From Candidatus Bathyarchaeota archaeon (GTDB lineage: Archaea > Thermoproteota > Bathyarchaeia > RBG-16-48-13 > JAGMEO01), in contig JAUVYS010000003.1 of NCBI GenBank assembly GCA_030602965.1, forward strand, positions 1 to 45,897: a stretch of 45,897 bases of DNA, written 5' to 3'. Below the pieces are notes generated by a model, which ran no database searches, was not told the DNA's origin, and saw only the letters and a program-made list of their open reading frames with translations. Both the position numbers and the translations under genes were made by a program. Below, in pieces: positions 12,531 through 31,461 of this stretch (position 1 is its first letter; the number at the start of each line of letters is the position of its first letter).

Positions 12531-12899
12531 TCACCCGATAATCTTGATTTCTTTTCCTTTAGGGAATTTCTCAATAAACTCGTTAATCGTGTAGCACTGT
12601 CCTTTTGCTTTTAAAATTTTGTCTCTTGCCTTTTGAGTGAAGCTAAAAGCTGCAACGTGGACCGGGTGATCTAAGAACCCCGCTGCCAAAATTTTGCCAG
12701 GAACTATAGCTTTATCTCGGGATTTTGTATACCTATTAATTCTGCTAATGTTCACTGCTACCTTCCTGTGTTTAGGTTTTTTTAAATAATTGGCAACATC
12801 ATCCCAAATGGCTGCACCAGTTTCGTTTGCCTTTTTTTTGAGCGATCTAATTGTATGAAAGAGCTCGGGATTCGTTGTTTTAAACTTCATTTGTATCAC
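12531..12899 (-). CDS. rpl18e: 50S ribosomal protein L18e
   Basis: WDDVANYLKKPKHRKVAVNISRINRYTKSRDKAIVPGKILAAGFLDHPVHVAAFSFTQKARDKI. Confidence 0.96.
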   Translation of the reverse strand: MIQMKFKTTNPELFHTIRSLKKKANETGAAIWDDVANYLKKPKHRKVAVNISRINRYTKSRDKAIVPGKILAAGFLDHPVHVAAFSFTQKARDKILKAKGQCYTINEFIEKFPKGKEIKIIG

Positions 12900-13759
12900 T
12901 TTTTCTTCTTTATTTTTGCTTTCTTTGTTTTTTTCTTCACCCTAGCTATTTTCAACTGATTAATTTGTTCAGTAAAGTCCTTAGACTTTTTCCTCAAGAT
13001 TTTTGTAGCTTCAATTATAATTTGTTCAGGTGGTAAAGCACCTGTTGGTCCGACATTAAAAATGAATGCGTTTTTAACATTCTTGATCTTGATAGCTGAA
13101 GGCGTTTTAGGACAAATAACTTCACAGTCATCACAAAGAGTACACTTTTCCTTAGCCACCACTTCTAACCTTTCATCTTTGATGTCAAGTACACCTTTTG
13201 GACAGCCCTCAACACACTGACCACACGCATCACATTTTCTACGGTTAACGATGATTTCAGGGACATATTTGTATGAAGAGACGGAGACAGGTTGCCATTT
13301 TGCATGTTTTGAGCCATGACCAAGTCGAGCATAAGCCTCTAATTTGATTTTTTGACTAGGTGCTAGTTTCACTATAGGAATTTTATCACTTATTGGTGTT
13401 ACATCTGGATTGGCTGATTTCAATTCCCCCGAATACACTGTTCGAATTGAATCTGAAGCCTCAGCATCGAGCGTTAAAGAAACGCTGCATTTATTACAGC
13501 CAAGCTCACTCTGACATTTGCATTCTTCAGGGAGAACGTAAGTATCTAAATCTGTCTTTAAAGGAACAAGACCCAATCTATGAGCCAAAACCTCATCGCA
13601 CATAACTGATGAGTTCTCAATAACAACCACCTCATCTATCGCCATAGTTGGAACCTCATTAACCATTATGCGCCTCAGTGCATTTGCTACTGGAGTAGAT
13701 ATTCCATTAACCTGAAAGCGAAGTTTGTTATCATCCTTATGTAGAATCTTGACATCCAT
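12896..13759 (-). CDS. rpoD: DNA-directed RNA polymerase subunit D with [4Fe-4S] ferredoxin-like domain
   Basis: VANALRRIMVNEVPTMAIDEVVVIENSSVMCDEVLAHRLGLVPL plus CDACGQCVEGCP and CTLCDDCEVICP. Confidence 0.97.
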   Translation of the reverse strand: MDVKILHKDDNKLRFQVNGISTPVANALRRIMVNEVPTMAIDEVVVIENSSVMCDEVLAHRLGLVPLKTDLDTYVLPEECKCQSELGCNKCSVSLTLDAEASDSIRTVYSGELKSANPDVTPISDKIPIVKLAPSQKIKLEAYARLGHGSKHAKWQPVSVSSYKYVPEIIVNRRKCDACGQCVEGCPKGVLDIKDERLEVVAKEKCTLCDDCEVICPKTPSAIKIKNVKNAFIFNVGPTGALPPEQIIIEATKILRKKSKDFTEQINQLKIARVKKKTKKAKIKKKK

Positions 13760-15470: not shown

Positions 15471-15672
15471 TTTACCTTCAGCTAAGTATTCTATGATAAA
15501 AACAATAGCTATGAATGGCTTAAAAGGAAATATTTACTTTCAGAATTAAATTGTGTAATTCGAGAATTATTCTTCTTCATTACTAATTTAGATGTTGACA
15601 TTTCTCAGATTATTCATGAACGAAGTAATCTTCTGCGAGATAAAATAGAAAATTAAAGAAAAAATTGAATGG

Positions 15673-15764
15673 TGGGCCGGCCCGGACTTGAACCGGGGAT
15701 CATCCGCGTGTCAGGCGGATATTAGGCAAAATTCTGTATCCTAACCAAACTAGACCACCGGCCC
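15673..15764 (-). tRNA. tRNA-Val(GAC) with a 17-nt intron (15721..15737); CCA encoded at 15670..15672
   Basis: GGGCCGG TG GTCT AGTTTGGTTA GGAT [ACAGAATTTTGCCTAAT] A TCCGC CTGACAC GCGGA TGATC CCCGG TTCAAGT CCGGG CCGGCCC A; cloverleaf is complete once the bracketed sequence is removed. Confidence 0.92.
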
Positions 15765-15834: not shown

Positions 15835-15924
15835 TGGACCGACCGGGATTTGAACCCGGGACCTTCGCGATGCCAACGCGACACTCCTTGGCCTTTGGAG
15901 TATACCAAGCTGAGCTACCGGCCC
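15835..15924 (-). tRNA. tRNA-Ala(GGC) with an approximately 16-nt intron (about 15887..15902); CCA encoded at 15832..15834
   Basis: GGGCCGG TA GCTC AGCTTGGTA [TACTCCAAAGGCCAAG] GAGT G TCGCG TTGGCAT CGCGA AGGTC CCGGG TTCAAAT CCCGG TCGGTCC A; all arms pair after excision. Confidence 0.9.
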
Positions 15925-31358: not shown

Positions 31359-31461
31359 CGGGCCCGGAGGGATTTGAACCCTCGGCCTTCGGGTTAAGAG
31401 CCTCAGCCTCAAAGAGGTAAACCTCAGAGACCGCTGCACTACCTAACTATGCTACGGGCCC
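31359..31461 (-). tRNA. tRNA-Lys(CTT) with a 29-nt intron (31402..31430); CCA encoded at 31356..31358
   Basis: GGGCCCG TA GCAT AGTTAGGTA GTGC A GCGG [TCTCTGAGGTTTACCTCTTTGAGGCTGAG] G CTCTTAA CCCGA AGGCC GAGGG TTCAAAT CCCTC CGGGCCC G. Confidence 0.9.

Follow-up and report, generated by a model that had tools for sequence, protein, structure and literature searches.

The window, that is, the whole stretch of 45,897 nt analysed here, belongs to a Bathyarchaeota assembly of 1.44 Mb that is 73.5% complete. On the minus strand it carries a tRNA-Val(GAC) gene whose two exons are separated by 17 nt. Positions 15764 to 15670 of this strand read GGGCCGGTGGTCTAGTTTGGTTAGGAT-ACAGAATTTTGCCTAAT-ATCCGCCTGACACGCGGATGATCCCCGGTTCAAGTCCGGGCCGGCCCACCA in the order exon-intron-exon, and the gene and the elements of its putative bulge-helix-bulge (BHB) motif, the last four of which were read directly from the letters, are as follows.

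15670-15764, minus strand: tRNA-Val(GAC) gene; precursor of 95 nt including the encoded CCA, mature tRNA of 78 nt
15721-15737, minus strand: intron ACAGAATTTTGCCTAAT, 17 nt, position 25/26; assigned from the parse and BHB fit, the copy in a sister species and intronless orthologs
15740-15743, minus strand: exon TAGG, 5′ strand of the BHB central helix
15723-15726, minus strand: intron CCTA, 3′ strand of the BHB central helix
15737-15739, minus strand: bulge AT^A at the 5′ splice site
15720-15722, minus strand: bulge AT^A at the 3′ splice site

The interval 15670-15764 matches the tRNA family RF00005 of Rfam with 48.1 bits. A first-pass annotation of this DNA had proposed the 17 nt intron, and its coordinates and sequence proved exact. 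Its removal restores a fully paired cloverleaf, as that annotation had also claimed, with all four stems formed: the acceptor stem has 7/7 pairs, the T-stem 5/5 and the anticodon stem 5/5 (TCCGC:GCGGA), and the D-stem GTCT:GGAT is formed by four pairs including two G-U. The spliced tRNA has T33, the anticodon GAC and the encoded CCA. Our parse places the insert between bases 25 and 26, where it separates the D-arm from the anticodon arm, so that it does not occupy the canonical position 37/38; this agrees with the earlier assignment between the D-arm and the anticodon stem.

The same mature sequence results from four adjacent intron frames. The archaeal splicing endonuclease EndA cleaves each 3 nt bulge after the second base, and among the four frames AT^A/AT^A is the one that fits this rule. 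In this frame, the 4 bp central helix TAGG:CCTA is flanked by 3 nt ATA bulges with the cut behind the second base of each; this agrees with the motif described at first pass. Shuffled introns yielded an all-Watson-Crick fit in a frame keeping the mature tRNA in 1.1% of cases and a BHB fit with G-U permitted in 8.7%. The intron does not have the strict hBHBh′ form with helices of ≥2 bp on both sides, a form that relaxed motifs need not show. On the intron side, the helix is short and weak, with the pairs C-G, A-T and G-T (shuffle p of about 0.12), and on the exon side a continuous helix is absent. The motif is thus a relaxed BHB rather than a full hBHBh′.

At 37 °C, free-energy minimization folds the precursor into a structure other than the BHB conformer, which is 6.4 kcal/mol less favourable. 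For two convincing homologs whose ends were trimmed correctly, the BHB conformer likewise lies 4.7-8.1 kcal/mol above the minimum; two further homologs, cut at a wrong 3′ end, were left out. Because this tendency is shared by homologous introns that have good hairpins, we judged free-energy folding to be uninformative and gave it little weight. The predicted fold, together with a mature product that cannot tell the four frames apart, would also be compatible with removal of the insert by a route other than BHB and EndA, or with cuts at shifted sites in another frame. We regard this as very improbable. Self-splicing introns need more length than the 17 nt insert offers, the AT^A frame gives the 4 bp helix with 3 nt bulges, and homologs with other junctions, such as AC^A and AA^G in tRNA-Val(TAC), keep the same phase.

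We compared the tRNA-Val(GAC) gene with its orthologs in related genomes, a comparison that the first-pass annotation had named as a check. A contig search with the neighbouring protein led to one locus, in the metagenome-assembled genome of a sister species of the same genus (G001). Its tRNA-Val(GAC) is 97% identical to the window copy and contains the intron at the same locus and position with one substitution, in the loop of the intron, where T replaces A. The tRNA-Ala/tRNA-Val pair is common to the window genome and the sister species, with the intron in the same place. The nearest named record, which we take to be this same sister genome, is Candidatus Bathyarchaeota archaeon RS_19_18 (JAGMEO010000020.1), in which the protein of the gene downstream of the tRNA is 94% identical. 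In the sister tRNA-Val(GAC) (L029/L106), C replaces T at position 33 (CCGACAC loop), an unusual residue that may reflect either true variation or a fault in the assembly.

Farther away, in genomes from the same order and class, tRNA-Val(GAC) is intronless (G003, G008 and G059), contains a canonical 37/38 intron (G005, G014 and G029) or contains a D-loop intron (G032). G004, a member of the same order, has an 18 nt intron at 25/26 in tRNA-Val(GAC) with the same TAGG:CCTA helix. The intronless and differently interrupted orthologs indicate that the 25/26 intron is an insertion into an otherwise intact gene and that tRNA-Val(GAC) is interrupted at different places across related lineages.

tRNA-Val(GAC) was found only once in the assembly, and GTT and GTC together account for 345 of the 628 valine codons in 21 open reading frames of the window. 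This single copy and the share of GTT/GTC codons make it very likely that the gene is needed. An intact second copy, which the first-pass annotation had set out as a sign of a pseudogene, did not appear. A tRNA-Val pseudogene with a random, unspliced insertion and an active copy elsewhere would demand that this second copy be missing from the assembly, as its 73.5% completeness would permit. Such a pseudogene is highly unlikely on several grounds: every stem is intact, the sister species shares the insertion within near-identical exons, the same insertion site is used by 13 genera of the class, and an insert would fit the BHB rule by chance in only ~1% of cases. Least plausible of all is an uninterrupted 95 nt tRNA-Ala(TGC) with its anticodon inside the putative intron, which is how ARAGORN labels 15670-15764 (tRNA-Ala(tgc)), since it leaves the perfect TCCGC-CTGACAC-GCGGA hairpin without explanation, the intronless orthologs carry this GAC hairpin and a proper tRNA-Ala(TGC) exists elsewhere in the genome (L006). 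We therefore rejected both the pseudogene and the tRNA-Ala(TGC), given the intact stems, the sole Val(GAC) copy, the genuine Ala(TGC) gene and the orthologs. The ARAGORN label also means that, when this genome is annotated automatically, the valine gene could be given an incorrect amino acid.

Noncanonically placed introns with a relaxed BHB have been tied to a heterotetrameric EndA with an extra loop (PMC4090602, PMC12397907, PMC7714728), and the first-pass annotation had pointed to such an enzyme as a check on the intron. This was borne out in the sister species, which has both α and β subunits. In the assembly that contains the window, complete to 73.5%, a search for α with the sister protein matched β only. 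Most relatives have two EndA paralogs. The sister α has the Tyr, His and Lys active-site residues and a loop of the Crenarchaea-specific type with a lysine, GKPVGIPKPK. It is most similar to the solved archaeal catalytic splicing-endonuclease chains 3p1z_B, 2cv8_A and 3ajv_B, and its loop aligns with GKPIGISKPK of 2cv8_A. The sister β is devoid of the active-site His and also matches solved splicing endonucleases. Compared with the (αβ)2 EndA of the crenarchaeal and nanoarchaeal type, the sister α thus aligns along its length, loop included, with solved catalytic chains, whereas the sister proteins are of Bathyarchaeota type and known from their sequences. The neighbourhood of the sister α is not collinear with the window genome: the shared segment stops downstream of α and the contig of the window genome then carries other genes, so that an assembly gap at α is neither shown nor excluded. 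The simplest reason for the missing α is the incomplete assembly, and we infer that the window species encodes it.

Taken with these comparisons, the locus is very probably a functional tRNA-Val(GAC) gene with a genuine BHB intron of 17 nt, noncanonically placed at 25/26, which was gained in this lineage and is spliced by a heterotetrameric EndA. In the precursor, the exon TAGG, located on the 3′ side of both D-loop and D-stem, would pair with the intron CCTA, and the (αβ)2 EndA would cleave both AT^A bulges. The exons would then be joined, upon which the D-stem and the anticodon stem could adopt their mature form. Exon joining in archaeal tRNA splicing is expected to be carried out by an RtcB-type ligase. 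By analogy with established archaeal tRNA splicing, the tRNA-Val(GAC) precursor is presumably cleaved and ligated in vivo after transcription and folding of the BHB. Many further BHB-type tRNA introns are present in the same genome. The intron would have been acquired in this lineage as one of a set at 25/26 that recurs in tRNA-Val genes of the class.

We searched 257 genomes of the class with a pattern for BHB-type introns at 25/26 of tRNA-Val. It matched in 23 of the 257 genomes and in 13 of 109 genera, counts that are lower bounds as the pattern covers one type of 25/26 intron; the reversed pattern, used as a control, gave 0 matches in the 257 genomes. All matches are tRNA-Val(TAC) genes (CTTAC loops) except those in the window genome (G000), G001 and G004, and among the 257 genomes the 25/26 introns in tRNA-Val(GAC) were found only in the window's order. 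The tRNA-Val(TAC) introns are 17-34 nt long. Most of them have an intron-side helix of 3-6 bp that is better than nearly all shuffles, and the sequence of this helix differs between copies (TTCC:GGAA, TCCA:TGGA, CTTGC:GCAAG and TTTACG:CGTAAA). The central helix of the other 25/26 Val introns is TAGG:CCTA/CCTG or CAGG:CCTG, the single CAGG exon being paired with an intron CCTG; since the search pattern itself fixes AGG and CCT, only the first base pair of the central helix and the helix on the intron side count as independent evidence. Many tRNA-Val(TAC) copies apparently have a second intron after the anticodon. The Val(TAC) introns of other genera resemble the window intron in insertion site, TAGG:CCTR helix and cut phase, but they interrupt another isoacceptor, most have a better hairpin, and their junctions are mostly AC^N and AA^G.

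The tRNA-Val(TAC) gene of the window genome itself (L020, G000:C14:7684-7779) has a 23 nt intron at 27/28, two bases from the 25/26 site, with the central helix GGAT:GTTC and the junctions AC^A/AA^T. This intron is kept in the sister species (L107), where GTTC is changed to GTCT with the pairing preserved. Tentatively, and with rather more doubt than confidence, 25/26 may be viewed as a recurrent BHB site of tRNA-Val from which an intron moved between isoacceptors, residing in TAC in several families and in GAC only in the window's order, where the TAC intron of the window genome would have shifted to 27/28. If true, this would be a traceable transfer or sliding of an intron inside one tRNA family in Bathyarchaeota-type archaea.

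Position 25/26 is already among the published noncanonical intron sites of archaea, and the tRNA-Glu(UUC) of Caldivirga maquilingensis, cited in the same work, is split there (PMC4090602). tRNAscan-SE 2.0 reported 673 introns at noncanonical sites across 217 archaeal genomes (PMC8450103), and Caldiarchaeum subterraneum is rich in tRNA introns, including noncanonical ones (PMC3293823). Because 25/26 and other noncanonical introns have been published, the tRNA-Val(GAC) intron is a further example of an established type. It resembles the known archaeal 25/26 introns in position, size range, BHB-type junctions and a lineage with an (αβ)2-type EndA, but differs in that its host is of Bathyarchaeota type, its gene is tRNA-Val and its motif is relaxed, with no continuous exon-side helix. 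The recurrence of 25/26 in Val isoacceptors of the class, with GAC rather than TAC used in the window's order, is of some interest. A dedicated study of tRNA introns in Bathyarchaeota or Bathyarchaeia was not found in the open-access literature searched and may still exist; our analysis adds a well-supported noncanonical intron for this poorly studied class. One orthologous tRNA with several intron positions and intronless neighbours offers a good data set on intron gain and movement, a subject treated in the literature consulted mostly for Thermoproteales.

Other tRNA genes of this genome are also interrupted. The adjoining tRNA-Ala(GGC) (15835-15924, minus strand) contains a noncanonical 15 nt D-loop intron, ACTCCAAAGGCCAAG, at 15887-15901 (about position 21/22), with a TGGT:GCCA helix and the bulges AT^A and AG^G. 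Splicing leaves a D-loop that ends in GGTAT, as in the tRNA-Ala(TGC) of this genome, which has no intron. In tRNA-Lys(CTT) (31359-31461, minus strand), a 29 nt insert at 31402-31430 lies at about position 30/31 with a central helix CAGC:GCTG, and this position is the join of the split tRNA-Lys(CUU) genes in Nanoarchaeum and Staphylothermus; the spliced anticodon stem would retain one G-A mismatch, 27-43. tRNA-Ser(CGA) (L017, G000:C14:38566-38691), parsed by eye, is apparently interrupted twice by BHB introns, at 32/33 (CTGG:CCAG) and in the variable arm (CCTT:AAGG), both of which are kept in the sister species (L105). The interval 12896-13759 (minus strand) of the window encodes an RpoD-like subunit of RNA polymerase, in which two cysteine motifs are of the ferredoxin (4Fe-4S) type.
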